Below are positions 38,758 to 49,164 of a stretch of DNA of 64,000 nt, piece by piece. The stretch comes from an uncultured Schlesneria sp. (GTDB lineage: Bacteria; Planctomycetota; Planctomycetia; Planctomycetales; Planctomycetaceae), in the NCBI GenBank assembly GCA_903858935.1, contig CAIOKO010000102.1, forward strand, positions 1 to 64,000, given 5' to 3'. The notes below the pieces were generated by a model. That model had not been told where the DNA came from and did not search any database. It worked only from the letters and a program-made list of their open reading frames with translations. Position 1 is the stretch's first letter, and every line of letters begins with the position of its first letter. The position numbers and the translations under genes were made by a program.

Positions 38758-39717
38758 ATGCGGCTTTACCACTGGAAAGCGCCTGCCGGAAATTTTGGGG
38801 ATGACCTCAACCCCTGGTTATGGGAACAACTTATTCCCGAGCTATCAGAGCTAGGTGATGACACTGTTGTCTTTTCCGGCGTGGGCTCATCCCTCCATGA
38901 ACTTTTGCCTAAGGGCTCCGTGAATGTTTTGCTCGGGCCAGGTGCAGGGTACGACTCGATTCCGAGGCGGAATTATCAGATCTACGCGTTACGGGGTCAG
39001 CTCACTGCGAGAGCGATGAAAGCGCCTGCGGATATTCCGCTAGGTGATCCTGCTGTTCTGATCTCACGTCTCTACCAGCCTAAAATTGCGGCGTCGGATC
39101 GGCCGCCGGTGGTCTTTGTGCCACACTGGACCACAATGGAACTTGGCGGATGGGAAGAGCCTTGCCAACGCTCGGGGTGTGTACTCGTCGATCCCCGAAT
39201 GGAATACCTCTTCGTGTTTGACCAGATCGCAAGTGCCCGGCTCGTCATTGCTGAATCGATGCATGCCGCCATTATCGCAGATTCTTTTCGAGTTCCCTGG
39301 ATTCCCGTGGTTTGCACCCATCGCATGGATTTCAAATGGCGAGACTGGCTTTCTCCATTACGCCTCGATTATGAACCGCACATGCTAGGGGCTCCTGAGT
39401 TACAATGGCTGGCGTTGACGAGCCAAGATCAAAGTCGTGAGGTGGGTGGTGAACTCGTTCTAAAACACCCCGGAGTCATCGAGTCATGGAGACGCCGCGT
39501 CCGCTGGCAATATTCCGGCCTGATGTTGAAATATTTCCGATGCTTTCGTGAACGCGTTCTGGATGCGCGGACTCAGTCATTAAGCTCGCTGCTCGGGAAC
39601 CAAATTGGAGTGCTGAGCAATTCCGTATTGTTGAACGAATGTCAGGATTCGCTTCTGGTCGCATGTGATCGGCTGCGCGCCGACTGGAGCCGACCGTCGG
39701 GGCCAGCCAGTGTGTAA
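38758..39717 (+). CDS. ExoV-like polysaccharide pyruvyl transferase family protein
   Basis: 319 residues from ATG 38758, which has GAGGA 7 nt upstream (the frame also opens with GTG 38740). The N-terminus MRLYHWKAPAGNFGDDLNPW is the typical start of the family, with the GNFGDDL donor-site motif. Later stretches RGQLTARAMK, PLGDPAVL, FVPHWTTME, and ARLVIAESMHAAIIADSFRVPWIPV complete the GT-B-like pattern. Members add pyruvate ketals to surface polysaccharide or work as related transferases. It stands alone among unrelated genes, directly followed by a glycosyltransferase remnant, so it may be the survivor of a small glycan locus. Confidence 0.85.
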   Translation: MRLYHWKAPAGNFGDDLNPWLWEQLIPELSELGDDTVVFSGVGSSLHELLPKGSVNVLLGPGAGYDSIPRRNYQIYALRGQLTARAMKAPADIPLGDPAVLISRLYQPKIAASDRPPVVFVPHWTTMELGGWEEPCQRSGCVLVDPRMEYLFVFDQIASARLVIAESMHAAIIADSFRVPWIPVVCTHRMDFKWRDWLSPLRLDYEPHMLGAPELQWLALTSQDQSREVGGELVLKHPGVIESWRRRVRWQYSGLMLKYFRCFRERVLDARTQSLSSLLGNQIGVLSNSVLLNECQDSLLVACDRLRADWSRPSGPASV

Positions 39718-39728
39718 GGAAATCGTCC

Positions 39729-39950
39729 ATGCTCACATTTGTCGTTCCCGTCAGGCATCCTGAGAAGGCAATGGATGGTACTGGTCCCCCCGGGTTGCAT
39801 ACGTACTCAGATGTCTGCGACGAATCATGTCGATTCGGTATCTTTCCGATGCTCTCCGTCAAGAGTTCTTCGGCCGGTCAAAGCAAAACTACTAAGCGGG
39901 TTCGCCTGAATAAGTGCGATATCGACCATTTTGTCGACGTTCAAATATGA
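39729..39950 (+). pseudogene. Truncated glycosyltransferase start
   Basis: The frame begins MLTFVVPVRHPEKAMDGT, close to the N-terminus of a GT-A glycosyltransferase family (usual form MLTF-(I/V)-(I/V)-PVRHP), with AAGGAA 8 nt before the ATG and only 11 nt after the pyruvyltransferase stop. After about 16 residues the resemblance ends and the frame closes at 73 codons. It looks like the remaining 5-prime end of a deleted second gene of the operon. The 3-prime neighbour on the opposite strand is the kinase pair. Confidence rests on the short N-terminal match. Confidence 0.4.
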
Positions 39951-39956
39951 ATTGAG

Positions 39957-42900
39957 CTACTCAGGCTTGCTGAACTCGCCAGCGTCGTATTTCTTCCAGA
40001 ACTCGGCGGCGGAGAATTCGCCCCATCCTCGAGTGCCAAATCGTTCGATCGATTTCATGTTTCGAACGATATCAATCCCCTTCGTGATATTCTTTGGCGT
40101 AAAGTGCAATTGAGTGAGCTTCATTCCTTCGAGTGGCGTCACGTCGGACACAGGCGTTTCGCTGAAACCCACTATCGACAAAGACATCCGACTTTCAATT
40201 AGCGGCGAGAGGTCGGCCACTTTCGTTTGTTGGAAATAAATGAAATTCAACGGCATTCCCCTGAGTGGCGAAATGTCAGAGACACTTGTGGCCGCGAACG
40301 AGAAGAATGTTAAATTCATCCCTTTCAGTGGGGAAAGATCAGAGATCTTTGTTTGTGTGATGCCGAGGTTGGTCAAGCCCATCCCTTGAATTTGCGAAAG
40401 ATTCGTGATTTGTGTTCCGTCGCACATGAGTAACCAAAGCGGCAGATCTCGCACGGGAGACAGGTCGGAAACTTTTGTGTTCGAGACATACAGATTTCCG
40501 AGAGTCATCCCTTTGAGCGGCGACAAGTCCGACAATTGCCCTTTTTCCGGGCCGCTGCCATTGCAGTTCAAAGCAAACAAACCTGTGAGCGTCCTCACCG
40601 GCGAAATGTCTGTCACATTGTCGGTGACAAAACCGAGCCGTTTAACGACTCCGTTTTCGATGAACGGCGGCTTGTTTTCCCCGTCGGTCACCTTCCCATC
40701 GAACCCCGGATTGAGTTCCACCAACTTCTTGCTGACGGCCTCCACCTGCTTCTCGGCAGGCATGGCCTGCACGTCTTTCATCCATTGATCGAAGCCGGGC
40801 ATCTGGAAGGCGAGTGGTTTCGATGGCGTTGGCTTGCCAAATTCGCCAGCATCGTACTTCTTCCAAAACTCTTCTGGAGTGAATGGTTTTTCTGGGTTGA
40901 AGCCCCAACCAATCGTCTCCGTGGAAATCGTCTTAAGGGTTGCCATCTGCCGGATGCGGTCCATGCCCTTCATGATGTTTTTGGGAGTAAAAAAAATTCG
41001 TTCCAATTTCATTCCGTCGAGCGGGGTCAGGTCTGAAACCTTGTTTTCAGTACAGAGTAATTCCGTCAACGGCATCCCCTTGAGCGGGGACAGGTCGGCA
41101 ATGTTAGTGGCGCTGCAAGCAAGGGTGGCCAGGTTCATTCCCCGAAGCGGAGAAATGTCCGATACCGCTGTTGCAGTGAAATCCAGTAAACCTAACGGCA
41201 TTCCTTTGAGCGGCGACAGGTCGAATACCGGCGTGTTGACACAATTCAAACTAACGAGTTTCATGTCTTTCAGCGGTGACAAGTCGGACACTTTTGAACC
41301 CCAGCAATTGATAACCTCCAGTGGCATTCCTTTGAGTGGGGAAATGTTGGAGACTTGCGTAGCATTGAAGGTCAACGACTTTAAATTCATCCCTTTCAGT
41401 GGCGAAAGATCGGACAAATCTGCGTTATATCCGCAAGCGAACCCCGTCAGTCCCATCCCGTTTACTGGCGACAGGTCGCGCAAAGTTCCTTTGCCCTGCG
41501 AACTGCCTTGAACAAGCAACGCTGTTAGTCCTTTCAATGCCAACACCGGCGAGATATCGCTTACGTGATCCGTAGAAAAACCAATCTCAACTACGACGCC
41601 GTTTTCGATTTCGGGTTTCGCCCCCCAAATGCCTCCGATCTTCCCATCAAACCCCGGATTGAGCTCCATCAACTTCTTGGACACCGCGTCGACTTGCTTA
41701 TCGGCAGGCATTGCTTGCACGTCTTTGATCCATTGCTGGAATGCTGGGGATTCCCACGGCTTGCTGCCCGCGACGTCCGCTTTCTTCAGTGGTTTCAACT
41801 CTGCCGTGATCGCCTCGGTCTTTCCCGACTTGATCTCAAAGCTGTCGGTGAAGATTTCAAATCCGTCCTTTTGAACTTTCAGCCGATGCTTACCCTCAAC
41901 AACCGTGATCTTAATCGGCCCTTTGTCCCCCTTCCGGGTAATTTCAACGGTGTCCTTTTCATTCAGCACTTGGACATCAGCATCAGGCTCAGTCACTGTG
42001 ACAACCAATGTGCCGTCCCCAGACCTGGTCTTCATGTTGATGACCACAGCCGCCAGCAGGAACATCGCACCCAAAACAGCAGCCCCGATCAGAAGCCGTT
42101 TTTTTCGATCGTTAAGCAGCGAGTTAGTCCCTTTATTAACGGGTTTCTTCGGCAGCGCCTTCGTGCGAACGGGTTTCGCCGGTGCTGAGGGTAGGTTGTC
42201 GAGAAAGTTTGTGAAGTTCGCCGCCGTTGACGGTTCGACCGACTTGTTTGTAGGCGAGGCGTTTGATTTGACGACCGTTTCCCGTGTTGGGGACGCCAAC
42301 GTCATCGCGTGAGACGACACCGATTTGTCGTGTGCAAGAATCGGCTGTTCGGTATCCGAAGACTGTAAGGCAACTGTATTCAGTTGATCCTGACGACAGC
42401 CTTCCAGAGCGACAATCACTTCTGTCATCGACTGGTAACGATCTTCGATTTTCTTGGCGACCATCTTCTTGAAGACCGCTTCAAGCGGTTCCGGGACTTC
42501 GGCACGAGCAGAACGCAGCGACGGAATCGGCTGTTCCCGATGAGCCAACAACTTTTTCATGAGCGTATCGCCTTCGTAGGTTGGTGTGCCGGTCAGCAAG
42601 TAAAACAGCGAACAACCCAACGCATAGATATCAGTACGAGCATCAGCCGTCTTCGTGTCCAGGGCCTGTTCGGGGGACATATAATCGACGGTTCCCATCA
42701 CCGCGCCAGTGTTTGTCAGATCGGCCTGCGTCGTAGCCTCGCTATCACTACTCAGGCGAGCCAGCCCCATATCCAGAATCTTGACCGTTCCCTCTGCGTC
42801 CAAAAGGAGATTGGCCGGTTTAATATCCCGATGCACAATCCCCTGCTTGTGGGCGGCTTCCAGTCCTTTTGCAGCCTGCAGGATGTAGTTGACCGCCGTA

Positions 42901-43402
42901 TTAACCGGGAACCGACCATCCTTTTTGACCAGGGCTGACAGATCACTCCCGTCCACCAGTTCCATCACAAGGAAGTGAACGCCGTGGGCGCAGTCGGCAT
43001 CGTGAGCCGCAACAATATTGGGATGACTGATCTTCGCAGCCGCTTTCACTCCGGTTCAAACCGGGCGATCGCGTCTTTGTCTTTCGTCAAAGCGGCCGGC
43101 AGCACCTTGACCGCGACCAGGCGATCCATTCGCAGATGCCGAGCTTTATACACCTGCCCCATGCCACCCGCCCCGATCTTTTCCATCAGAACGTAGTTCC
43201 CCAGAACAAGCGATTTGCCCTTCCCTTTAGATATTTCTTCCGCCTGAAATTTCGTCAGTTTTTTCTTGCGGACAAGCTCCAAAGCCAACTCTTCGGCACT
43301 CTTGGGAGAAGCCCTCGGTGGTAAAAAGTCCTTCAGCGTTTCGCCAGCGACAATGCCGCTGTCCTCCAGCTGCTGAACAAACTTTTCAAGAGGAACGGCC
43401 AT
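39957..43402 (-). pseudogene. Ser/Thr kinase - TM - PEGA - LRR protein, split by a one-base deletion
   Basis: Two frames, 43402-43046 (118 codons, MAVPLEKFVQQLEDSG) and 43049-39957 (1030 codons), together reconstruct a protein parallel to the kinase at 43504-47328. The first frame has the helical extension, GAGGMGQVYKA loop and VAVKVL lysine, and ends ARFEPE. The intact paralogue reads GAACGGGAAGTG at this point and this copy reads GAACCGGAGTG, one A short. The second frame continues [45 protein letters not shown], then TM helix [19 protein letters not shown], a PEGA-like segment and two LRR-type blocks. The frames overlap by GTGA, so a coupled two-piece product cannot be excluded. Everything else is intact, so the lesion is recent or a sequencing error. 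Confidence 0.8.
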
Positions 43403-43484
43403 CGTCGGCAGCCTCGTTCAAAGGCAAGGACATGGAACAAAGCGGTTCTCACCGAAAGTCGTGGCATTTGCCAGAGAAATGGGT
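43403..43484 (-). repeat. Duplicated 82-bp leader, copy 1
   Basis: Upstream of the split kinase gene; matches 47329-47410 in front of the intact paralogue at most positions and the same length (CGTTCAAAGGCAAGGACATG is shared, as is GGCATTTGCCAGAGAAATGG). The gene duplication therefore included the 5-prime regulatory region. Confidence 0.75.
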
Positions 43485-43503
43485 CAGTCAACACCCGCCA
43501 ATC

Positions 43504-46500
43504 CTACTTCTTCTTTTCGACTTGTTTCCAGAACTCCGCTGATGATTTGTTGTTGATCGTCTCCAGAGTCTTGATGGAGCGGAGGATTTCTGTGTCCCGT
43601 TCGGGCTTGAAGTCGAACAAAAGTGTCTTAAGCGGTAGTTCCTTGAGTATCGAGAAGTCAGAAACTTTCGTGCCGTGACATAACAATCCTTGCAGCGGCA
43701 TCCCTCTCAGCACTGAAATATCAGAAACTTTTGTCTCACCAAAAGACAAGTATTCGAGCTTCATGTTCTTCAGAGGCGTCAAATCACTTACTTGTGAATG
43801 TCCGAAGCTAATTCGAGTGATCTTCATTCCATCCAATGGAGAAAGGTCATAGACTTTTTTCGCATCGTCAAGGTAAAGCTCTTTTAAGGGCATCCCTTTC
43901 AGCGGCATCAAATGCGATACATTGGAACCCACACAAGAAAGTATAGTGAGCGGCATTTCGTGAAGCGGTGACAAATTAGAAACTTGAGTGAAATCACAAC
44001 GAAGCGAAGCCAGTTTCAGATCGTTTATCGGTGAGAGATCGGAAACCTTTCCCTTGCCGATTCCGCTTCCAGAACAGCTGAGATCTGTCAACCCGGTTAA
44101 AGCCCGCACCGGAGAAATATCTTTCACCTCGTTTGAAAGAAAGCCGATGCTTTTAACGACATCTTTTTCGATGACGGGAGTCCCAACCCCTCCAGCATCC
44201 GTCAACTTCCCATCGAATCCCGGATTGAGTTCCTTCAACTTCTTGCTGACCGCTTCCACCTGCTTCTCGGCAGGCATCGCTTGCACGTGTTTAATCCAAC
44301 TTTCGAAACCGGGAATCTGGAAGGCCAGTTTCGATGGCTTTTTGAACTCCCCAGCGTCGTATTTCTTCCAGAACTGATCGGGAGTGAACTTATTTTTATC
44401 ATCCCAACCAATTCCGATGCTCTTGAGGCTTTTCATCCGGCGGATGGCGTCTAACCCACTGAGGATCGTCGCGGGGGTGAAAATCAAGTTGTCTAACTCA
44501 ATTCCCCGCAGTGGCTCAACGTTCGTGACTTTGGTCCCAAGAATATTCAAGTCCTTCAGCGGCATCCCTTTGATCGGCGACAAATCGAACAGTGGAGTTT
44601 GCCCGAAGTCTGCGACTCTCAGCGTCATTCCGATCAACGGTGTTAAATTTGATACGTTGGTACCTGGGCATACAATCTCTCGTAAAGGCATTCCAGCTAA
44701 AGGAGCGATGTCTGAAAGTGAGAGATTCTGAGAGCATTCGAGACGAACGAGGTGCATCCCATTCAGCGGTGACAGGTCGAACAATCCGCCGTTTGCACGT
44801 GTGCCAATGTTGCTGCTGCCCCTGCAAACCAGAACCTGTAATCCCGTTAACGCCCTCAAAGGGGATAGATCGCTTAACCGATCCGTATAGACTTTCAGTT
44901 GCGTGACCACCCCATCGACAATCGACGGCGGACCTTGTGCGTAGGAATTTGCGAGCTTCCCATCAAATCCCGGATTCAACTCCATCAACTTTGTCGAGAC
45001 CGCCTTTAACTGCTTTTCGGCGGGCATCGCCTGCACGTCTTTCACCCATTGCTGGAAGGCGGGACTGTTCCATTTTTCGGAAGAACTGTTCTGGGGGGCT
45101 ATTTCTGCGATCCTGATATTTCGGAATCGCACCGCATTCTTCTGAGATTGCAGGCCGATCCGGCCTTTTGTTCGTTTCCATGCGGGATAGGCGTTGGGGC
45201 GGCTTGCCAATTCGCTTACGTCCAGCTTGAGTACTTCTGTCCCATTGACTGCGATCTTTAATTTGCGGGAGTGAAGGTTCATTTCCAGCGAATTCCACGC
45301 ATCCCCCGACTTTTCTTTGGCCTGTTGTTTCACGGGAATAAATCCCGCATCCACGGTGTTTGCCAGGTCCGACCAGACCCCTCCCGTGGCCCAGCCGGCA
45401 ATCTGACCGATCTGAACTTCCAGATGTTCTTTGTCTGCAGGTGAAGCGAGAATGGCAACGCCGCTGTTTGATCCTTCTTCTGTCTGATACTCCAATCTCA
45501 ACACAAATTCGGCGTATTCGTTATTTGAGAGCAGCCAACCGCCACCTTTTCCGGTTGCCGTTAAGACATGTTTAGAAGCGTCTACTTTCCAGTTACTTTG
45601 GTCGCCTTCTCGTATCCATCCTGTAAGATCTCGACCATTAAAAATGTCCACGAATTTGAGGTCGTCGAGTGGATTTGAACTGTCGACCGGCCCGGCCACC
45701 GCTGCGTTGACTTGCGGTATCAACTCTGCCCGGATCGACTTGGTCTTGCCAGATTTGATCTCAAAACTGTCCGTGAAAATTTCAAAGCCGTCCTTCTGAA
45801 TCCTCAGCCGATGCTTCCCCGGTACGACCGTAATCTTGATCGGCCCATCCTCTCCCTTGCGGGTCATCTCAACCGTGTTCTTTTCATTCAGCACTTCGAC
45901 GTCAGCATCGGGCTCAGTCACTGTCACAACCAAAGTGCCGTCCCCAGACCTGGTCTTCATATTGATGACCACACCCGCCAGCAGGAACAAAGCCCCCAGA
46001 ACCGCAGCACCGATCAGAAGCAGTTTTTTCTGGTCTTTGAGAAGCGAATTCGCCCCTTTTGTGACAGGCTTTTTCGGCTGCGTCTTCGTGCGGATGGGTT
46101 TTGTCGGTGTCGAGGGGAGATTGTCGAGAAAGTTTGCGAAGCTCGCCACCGGGGACGATTCGACCGACTTGCTTGTTGACGAGATGTTTGAGTTGACCAT
46201 CGTTTCCCGTGTCTGGGATGGTAGCGTCATCACTGGTGACGAACCCGATTTGTCTTGTACAAGAATCGGCTGGCCGGTCTCTGAAGACTGGATGGCAACC
46301 GTGTTCGCTTGACCACAACGACAGCCTTCCAGGGCGGCAATGACTTCCGTCATCGTCTGGTAACGATCTTCGACTTTCTTTGCGACCATCTTCTTGAAGA
46401 CTGCGTCAACGGGCTCCGCGACTTCGGCACGTGAAGAACGCAACGACGGTATCGGTTGTTCCCGATGGGCCAACAACTTCATCATAAGCGTGTTGCCTTG

Positions 46501-47328
46501 ATAGGTTGTCGTGCCGGTCAGCAGGTAAAAGAGCGAACAACCTAACGCACAGATATCTGTACGGGCATCAGCCGTCTTCGTGTCCATCGCCTGTTCGGGG
46601 GACATGTAATCGACAGTCCCCATCACGATACCGGTGCTTGTCAGGCCGGCTTGTGCTGCCGCGTCATTATCACTACTCAGGCGAGCCAGCCCCATATCCA
46701 GAATCTTCACTGTTCCCTTTTTGTCGAGAAGCAGGTTGGCTGGTTTAATGTCCCGGTGAACAAGCCCTTCGGCGTGAGCGGCTTCCAGTCCTTTGGCGGC
46801 TTGAAGGATGTAGTTCACCGCCGCCTCAACGGCTAAACATCCATCCTTGTCAACAAGGGCCGAAAGGTCACTCCCATCCACGAGTTCCATCACGAGAAAG
46901 TGGACACCATTGGCACAATCAGCATCATGAGCCGCGACAATATTGGGATGACTGATCTTCGCGGCCGCTTTCACTTCCCGTTCAAATCGGGCGATCGCGG
47001 CATTGTCTCTCGTCATGGCAGCTGGCAGCACCTTGACCGCGACGAGGCGATCCATTCGCAGATGCCGAGCTTTATACACCTGCCCCATGCCACCTGCCCC
47101 GATTTTTTCCATCAGGACGTAGTTGCCCAGAACTAGCGTTTTTCCCTTCCCTTTAGAAACAACCTCCGCCTGAAATCTCGTCAGTTTTTTCTTGCGGACC
47201 AGTTCCAGAGCCAGCTCTTCGGCACTCTGGGGAGATGCCCTGGGGGGCAAAAAGTCCTTCAACGTTTCGCCAGCGACGATGCCGCTTTCTTCAAGCTGCT
47301 GAATAAACTTTTCGAGAGGGAGGGCCAT
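43504..47328 (-). CDS. Ser/Thr protein kinase - TM - PEGA - DUF1080 - LRR protein
   Basis: 1274 residues. Order: helical N-terminal extension (1-66); kinase (about 70-340) with GAGGMGQVYKA, VAVKVL lysine, [13 protein letters not shown] catalytic loop, DMG in place of DFG, and MSPEQAMD; Ser/Thr-rich linker; membrane helix (about 436-456); PEGA-like domain ([19 protein letters not shown]); a DUF1080/concanavalin-like domain (about 550-740, FVDIFNGRDLTGWI; VLRLEYQTEEGSNSGVAI); then two modules each starting with [13 protein letters not shown] and followed by LRR-like repeats of about 22 residues (DLSPLNGMHL, DLSPIKGMPL). The kinase is cytoplasmic; the rest should lie outside the membrane and may sense a sugar-containing ligand. 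The paralogue at 39957-43402 lacks the DUF1080 domain. Confidence 0.92.
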   Translation of the reverse strand: MALPLEKFIQQLEESGIVAGETLKDFLPPRASPQSAEELALELVRKKKLTRFQAEVVSKGKGKTLVLGNYVLMEKIGAGGMGQVYKARHLRMDRLVAVKVLPAAMTRDNAAIARFEREVKAAAKISHPNIVAAHDADCANGVHFLVMELVDGSDLSALVDKDGCLAVEAAVNYILQAAKGLEAAHAEGLVHRDIKPANLLLDKKGTVKILDMGLARLSSDNDAAAQAGLTSTGIVMGTVDYMSPEQAMDTKTADARTDICALGCSLFYLLTGTTTYQGNTLMMKLLAHREQPIPSLRSSRAEVAEPVDAVFKKMVAKKVEDRYQTMTEVIAALEGCRCGQANTVAIQSSETGQPILVQDKSGSSPVMTLPSQTRETMVNSNISSTSKSVESSPVASFANFLDNLPSTPTKPIRTKTQPKKPVTKGANSLLKDQKKLLLIGAAVLGALFLLAGVVINMKTRSGDGTLVVTVTEPDADVEVLNEKNTVEMTRKGEDGPIKITVVPGKHRLRIQKDGFEIFTDSFEIKSGKTKSIRAELIPQVNAAVAGPVDSSNPLDDLKFVDIFNGRDLTGWIREGDQSNWKVDASKHVLTATGKGGGWLLSNNEYAEFVLRLEYQTEEGSNSGVAILASPADKEHLEVQIGQIAGWATGGVWSDLANTVDAGFIPVKQQAKEKSGDAWNSLEMNLHSRKLKIAVNGTEVLKLDVSELASRPNAYPAWKRTKGRIGLQSQKNAVRFRNIRIAEIAPQNSSSEKWNSPAFQQWVKDVQAMPAEKQLKAVSTKLMELNPGFDGKLANSYAQGPPSIVDGVVTQLKVYTDRLSDLSPLRALTGLQVLVCRGSSNIGTRANGGLFDLSPLNGMHLVRLECSQNLSLSDIAPLAGMPLREIVCPGTNVSNLTPLIGMTLRVADFGQTPLFDLSPIKGMPLKDLNILGTKVTNVEPLRGIELDNLIFTPATILSGLDAIRRMKSLKSIGIGWDDKNKFTPDQFWKKYDAGEFKKPSKLAFQIPGFESWIKHVQAMPAEKQVEAVSKKLKELNPGFDGKLTDAGGVGTPVIEKDVVKSIGFLSNEVKDISPVRALTGLTDLSCSGSGIGKGKVSDLSPINDLKLASLRCDFTQVSNLSPLHEMPLTILSCVGSNVSHLMPLKGMPLKELYLDDAKKVYDLSPLDGMKITRISFGHSQVSDLTPLKNMKLEYLSFGETKVSDISVLRGMPLQGLLCHGTKVSDFSILKELPLKTLLFDFKPERDTEILRSIKTLETINNKSSAEFWKQVEKKK

Positions 47329-47410
47329 CGTCGGCAGCTTCGTTCAAAGGCAAGGACATGGGATAAAACGATTCTCATCGAAAATCGGGGCATTTGCCAG
47401 AGAAATGGGT
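47329..47410 (-). repeat. Duplicated 82-bp leader, copy 2
   Basis: Upstream of the intact kinase gene; partner of 43403-43484. The shared block probably holds the promoter and leader of both kinase genes. Confidence 0.75.
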
Positions 47411-47745
47411 TCTTTAATGTTCGAAGGTCGCTTACTTTCCCGTCGTTACCAAGTCAGCCGTGGTCACCATGGCTGACGACCACGGCCATCGAGTCAGTTC
47501 GCAAGTTCGTTGAGCTGAGATGTCGGGATTTCCCCAGTCGTATTTTCGATTTCGGGAATGTCGCTTGTACTCTTGAAGTCAAACGATGCGACTCGCGTGC
47601 CTCTCGAACGCAAATTTACTAGACTACTTGTCACGTGATTCGATCGCATTCAACCGCTCGTCCATTGTCTGGCCGTTTTGCGGAGATGCCATCGGCACAC
47701 TTGTTTCTTTCACACCCGAAATAGACCTTGAGATTGAAATAACAA
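47411..47745. other. Divergent spacer upstream of lpd
   Basis: 335 nt between the kinase leader and lpd. It contains one clear inverted repeat, GCCGTGGTC (47457-47465) with GACCACGGC (47478-47486), without a T run, and no gene. It should contain the lpd promoter. Confidence 0.45.
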
Positions 47746-49164
47746 ATGGCGGAATTGCAGACACAATTGCTCGTGCTCGGTGGTGGTCCTGGCGGATATC
47801 CTGCGGCGTTTGAAGCGGCGGATCACGGAATGCAGGTCATGCTCGTTGACGAAGGAGCACGACCCGGTGGAGTCTGTCTGAATCGGGGCTGTATCCCGTC
47901 CAAGGCTCTGCTGCATGTCGCCAAAATGATTAACGAAACGCATGAATCTGCGGCAATTGGTGTGACATTCGCCCCGCCAAAGATTGATCTGGCAAAATTA
48001 CGGGAATGGAAAAACAACGGAGTTGTTGGCAAGCTTTCCGGTGGCGTTGCCGAGCTATGCCGGGTTCGCGGGGTAAAACTGATCAGTGCTCGTGGGACGT
48101 TTCTCGGCCCGAACACGATCGAATTGAAATACGCAGACGGCAAAACCGACAAAGTGACGTTCGAAAAAGCGATCATCGCCACCGGTTCATCCCCTGCCAT
48201 GCCGCCCGTCTTTCAGATTGGTGATCCGCGCGTCATGGACTCAACCGGAGCACTCGAACTCGCGGACATTCCCGGTTCGTTGCTCGTCGTCGGCGGCGGG
48301 TATATCGGTCTGGAAATGGGTTCTTTTTATGCAGCCCTGGGTTCCAAAGTCACTGTCGTCGAATGGACAAAAGAACTCCTTCCAGGTGCCGACCGCGACC
48401 TCGTCCGACCGCTCCAGAAACGACTGGAAACGCATTTTGCCGCAATTCATCTCAACACCAAGGTGGAAGGTCTCAAGGCCGCAAAGAATGGAATTACCGC
48501 AAAACTGACGGGTGAAGGGGTCGCTCCAGAGCAGACATTTGACCGAGTTTTGATCGCGATCGGTCGGCGTCCGAATAGCAAGGGTTTCGGCATGGAAACG
48601 ACCGGTGTCGACGTGGATGAAAAAGGATTCATCAAGGTCGATCGTCAGCGGAAGACGAATGTCGCCAACATTTATGCCATTGGCGATGTCGCCGGTGAAC
48701 CAATGCTGGCACATAAAGCGACTCGTGAAGCCAAGGTCGCAGTCGAGGCGATGAACGGCGGTCCGGCAGAATTCGATAATATTGCCATCCCCGCCGTCGT
48801 CTTCACCGATCCGGAAGTTGCCTGGTGCGGCCTGACCGAACCGGAAGCGATCGCCAAGAACCGCGAAGTCAAAGTTGTCAAATTCAACTGGGCCGCCTCG
48901 GGACGAGCGATCACATTGGCTCGAAGCGAAGGGCTGACAAAGATGATCGTTGACCCCAAAACCGAACGGATTCTCGGGGTCGGGATCGTTGGAGTAGGTG
49001 CCGGCGAAATGATTGCCGAAGCGACATTGGCGGTCGAAATGGCTGCCGTAGCACGTGACCTGGCCGAAACCATTCACGCTCATCCAACACTCAGCGAAAC
49101 TGTGATGGAAGCGGCAGAAAGCGTCTACGGCCAGGCAACGCATTCGTACAAACCAAAACGCTGA
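47746..49164 (+). CDS. lpdA: Dihydrolipoyl dehydrogenase
   Basis: 472 residues, standard length for E3. It reoxidises dihydrolipoamide of 2-oxoacid dehydrogenase or glycine cleavage complexes with NAD. FAD-binding [19 protein letters not shown]; redox disulfide in [17 protein letters not shown] site [19 protein letters not shown]; second FAD contact [22 protein letters not shown]; and the catalytic His-Glu in [14 protein letters not shown]. All residues needed are present. No E1 or E2 gene is adjacent. The ATG at 47746 lacks a strong ribosome binding site but gives the normal N-terminus ([13 protein letters not shown]). Confidence 0.96.

Follow-up and report, generated by a model that had tools for sequence, protein, structure and literature searches.

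Results

A tandem pair of receptor-like kinase genes

The gene k2, a receptor-like Ser/Thr kinase gene, lies on the minus strand at positions 43402-39957 of the window (the whole 64,000-nucleotide stretch analysed here, from contig C102 of an uncultured Schlesneria sp. genome of 7.93 Mb in 280 contigs), where it is read as two ORFs. The upstream ORF, piece A (43046-43402, minus strand, 118 aa), comprises an N-terminal extension, strands beta1 to beta3 of the kinase domain with the Gly-rich loop and the catalytic Lys, and the start of helix alpha-C as far as its Glu, and it ends in ...ARFEPE*. The downstream ORF, piece B (39957-43049, minus strand, 1030 aa), begins at a mechanically assigned GTG and holds the remaining kinase domain, a transmembrane segment, a PEGA domain and two LRR modules. 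The frame break and the two ORFs sharing the bases GTGA, as described in the original prediction, were confirmed in the assembled sequence, and the frame of piece B is open throughout.

Of the Pkinase profile (PF00069), Pfam annotation of the two ORFs assigns the first 41 positions to piece A and positions 50-253 to piece B, where a PEGA domain and then LRR repeats come after it; in the genome-wide search the two frames cover positions 1-61 and 43-253. A complete Pkinase domain in a single frame is found in k1, the tandem paralogue, and in both k2 orthologues, and not in k2 itself. The catalytic motifs of k2 are nonetheless all there, with VAVK and the terminal alpha-C Glu encoded in piece A and HRDIKPAN and LDMG in piece B; DMG in place of DFG also occurs in the k2 orthologues.

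The intact k1 (43504-47328, minus strand, 1274 aa) encodes a kinase domain, a PEGA domain, a 3-keto-disaccharide hydrolase domain (DUF1080) and two LRR modules, the DUF1080 domain being placed between PEGA and the LRR modules and absent from k2. About 80 bases 5' of the start codon are conserved in k1, k2 and their orthologues (window 43403-43490 and 47329-47410), indicating that the duplication took in the leader region. The kinase domain of k1 aligns over its whole length with that of Mycobacterium tuberculosis PknB (E 6.6e-52), and k1 and k2 share with PknB-type, Hanks-type receptor-like kinases a transmembrane segment and a presumed external sensor part. They differ from them in that the sensor here consists of PEGA and LRR modules, with DUF1080 in addition in k1, and in that the frame of k2 is broken in alpha-C. 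A literature search on planctomycete LRR kinases found nothing on point.

The lesion comprises two changes within helix alpha-C

In the lesion (43046-43054, minus strand) one base is missing between 43051 and 43050 by comparison with the paralogue and the orthologues, a private G-to-C substitution at 43053 turns Arg into Pro, and GTGA occupies 43049-43046. k2 has GAACCGGAGTG at the site, where k1 has GAACGGGAAGTG and the k2 orthologues have GAGCGGGAAGTC. The single missing base that the original prediction drew from the paralogue comparison was therefore correct but incomplete, as the substitution also belongs to the lesion. The break had further been placed between the catalytic Lys and alpha-C; alignment with PknB instead puts it inside alpha-C, directly past its Glu, with the last E of piece A aligned with PknB Glu59, 19 residues past Lys40. 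A pair of changes only a few bases apart is not what a random sequencing error usually produces, nor what one simple mutation does.

Two origins for the clustered changes were considered. The substitution at 43053 gives an inverted repeat perfect 6-bp arms around a 2-nt spacer (CCGGTT-TG-AACCGG, 43051-43064, minus strand), which hints that a quasipalindrome template switch might lie behind both changes; about 10% of random substitution and deletion pairs near the site also create a 6-bp inverted repeat, and on this count a template switch was not adopted. As in known quasipalindrome template-switch mutations (PMC7202029), a clustered change perfects an imperfect inverted repeat; unlike in those, the opposite arm does not supply a complete template for the k2 deletion. 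Gene conversion from k1 was the second candidate. Four consecutive k1-type alleles span the lesion and are flanked by k2-type alleles at -24 and +70, a pattern that conversion by k1 or a chimera with it could produce. The run is not significant, since runs of four or more k1-type alleles are expected somewhere with a chance probability of 0.10 and two more of them lie elsewhere with no lesion, and conversion across the lesion was set aside.

The frame is intact in relatives and the gene is under selection

Syntenic orthologues of k2 were found in two other Schlesneria MAGs, G012 (L016, 8922-12353, 1143 aa) and G011 (L017, 9681-12179, 832 aa), each as a single ORF, with the order and neighbours of k1 and k2 the same in both genomes and a DNA identity of about 91%. 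The difference in length between the two orthologues sits in the LRR modules and not at the lesion site. Comparison with close relatives was one of the tests on which the original prediction was to stand or fall as more than an ordinary intact gene, and it found an intact frame in both, so that the two-ORF layout is not conserved. Beyond the orthologues, 124 distinct other kinase stretches, taken from the loci compared here, cross the site in one frame, and all but one of them (123/124) have Glu at the alpha-C position; neither they nor the two syntenic orthologues carry the lesion.

The k2 LRR modules (window 41741-39960) turn over between these congeners (L016, 8922-12353; L017, 9681-12179). 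Only the second k2 module of the window has orthologous counterparts, namely the first module in G012 and the one in G011, at 74-82%, and the other k2 modules reach 45-55% to everything, while the LRR modules of k1 keep 91-95% identity in all three species.

Strong purifying selection was evident from pairwise omega, which is about 0.05 for piece A and, in piece B, 0.09-0.11 over the kinase portion. Across the 336 kinase-bearing codons, the private changes of the window branch are 13 nonsynonymous and 40 synonymous, and neither a comparison with the orthologue branches (Fisher p 0.24) nor one with k1 (p 0.31) detected any relaxation on this branch. A simple Poisson bound on a rough site count allows k2 to have been a neutral pseudogene for no more than about 0.12 of the branch. 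Together with the lack of detectable relaxation, this bound indicates that the lesion is either very young or not real.

The GTGA overlap is a common outcome of deletion

At the junction, k1-type sequence reads GTG-AAA, in which GTG is a Val codon in frame; the loss of any one base just upstream therefore puts TGA in frame, and GTG could still serve as a start. When each base in turn was deleted from the window's other long ORFs, and the first out-of-frame stop was scored for overlap with an ATG, GTG or TTG of the original frame, 52% of the simulated deletions gave an NTGA overlap in the original frame and 18% gave GTGA specifically; the ORFs were picked by length, and a few may be no real genes. 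An overlap that arises this often says little for coupling. GGAG abuts GTG without any spacing and is thus not usable as a Shine-Dalgarno sequence.

The assembly is not rich in frameshifts

A PF00069 search of the window's genome recovered about 49 kinases, of which k2 alone is divided between two frames. ORFs from the syntenic contigs of G011 and G012, compared with the window, showed about 23 further genes in the interval from 24.4 to 64 kb to be full length. The assembly is not generally frameshift-ridden, and a single isolated error is possible.

Discussion

The data are very probably explained by k2 being an ordinary conserved planctomycete receptor-like kinase gene that carries one private, frame-breaking lesion, either very recent or artefactual. 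Its product would be built from an N-terminal extension, a PknB-like kinase domain, a transmembrane segment, a PEGA domain and LRR sensor modules. Of the possibilities listed in the original prediction, a very recent pseudogene and an assembly error survive, whereas phase variation and a kinase made as coupled pieces are not supported. The lesion resembles the recent or spurious frameshift pseudogenes described by Cooley and Wright (PMC11017572), being a single lesion in an otherwise intact and selected gene and absent from relatives; it departs from them in having one extra adjacent substitution. The intact frame of the syntenic orthologues is as expected of a frameshift pseudogene, and the relaxed selection or further decay that also marks such genes is not seen in k2, which fits a lesion that is too young for either to show, or an artefact.

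The chances are about even that the lesion is a real loss-of-function mutation that arose very recently in the sampled population. Translation would then end right past the alpha-C Glu and leave an inactive fragment of 118 aa, so that k2 would presumably have lost its kinase activity, and the downstream 1030 codons would be a fossil too young for decay.

The other form of the same explanation, in which k2 is intact in the organism and reads were mis-joined or mis-called in a stretch nearly identical to k1 during assembly or consensus calling, could well be true, at somewhat short of even chances. k1 and k2 are near-identical over tens of bases around the site, the k1-type alleles run straight across the lesion, and selection shows no sign of having been relaxed, all of which speaks for such an error. 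Spurious frameshift pseudogenes from assembly are moreover common, with one or more in every Mb when coverage is 10-fold or lower (PMC11017572). A relative's MAG offers a possible parallel, as a kinase of the planctomycete MAG A_MB81_1 (L047, 2604-3254), one of the 124 stretches that cross the site in frame, shows several apparent frame jumps and an internal stop elsewhere in the kinase, possibly from indel errors of assembly. Against an artefact, runs of four or more k1-type alleles are not improbable by chance and occur twice elsewhere in lesion-free sequence, and since no other kinase and none of the nearby genes checked is broken, the assembly is not rich in errors. The young mutation may be preferred to the artefact only tentatively.

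A reversible or programmed change of frame, in which the full kinase is regained through phase variation or -1 ribosomal frameshifting, is very unlikely. An intact downstream frame under selection speaks for it, but the site has no homopolymer of four or more bases and no short repeat, so that phase variation, as raised in the original prediction, has no repeat tract to act on; neither a simple-sequence repeat nor an invertible element, as found at the switch sites of phase-variable genes, was detected at the lesion. The sequence at 43060-43041 has no slippery heptamer of the form X XXY YYZ at the frame junction, CCG-GAG-TGA not being one for the required -1 shift, and the orthologues need no programmed shift. 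A structured RNA at the junction was likewise rejected, as the fold around it is unremarkable (z -1.8) and 39500-47800 gave no Rfam match.

It is also very unlikely that, in this one species, the two pieces are translationally coupled by termination-reinitiation at GTGA and assemble into an active kinase with a split N-lobe: four-base overlaps are described and used for coupling in bacteria, where reinitiation at overlaps is a real process generally (PMC6728339), and the downstream frame is entirely open, but each orthologue is a single ORF, an overlap of this kind is expected in about half of random deletions, the GTG is an ordinary Val codon in k1-type sequence, no suitably spaced Shine-Dalgarno sequence is seen 5' of it, and the cut falls inside alpha-C, with a new Pro, where it would divide the N-lobe. 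Reinitiation at GTGA is conceivable but not needed to explain the layout, and the coupled kinase of the original prediction was abandoned on these grounds. A literature search on natural split kinases found nothing on point.

The k2 lesion, whether mutation or artefact, does not define a new two-piece kinase type. A false lead is removed, in that the stop-start overlap is a common outcome of one-base deletion in these genes and no sign of coupling. A gene in a MAG may look split yet bear every mark of recent selection, and two-ORF kinases from single draft genomes should therefore be checked against relatives first.
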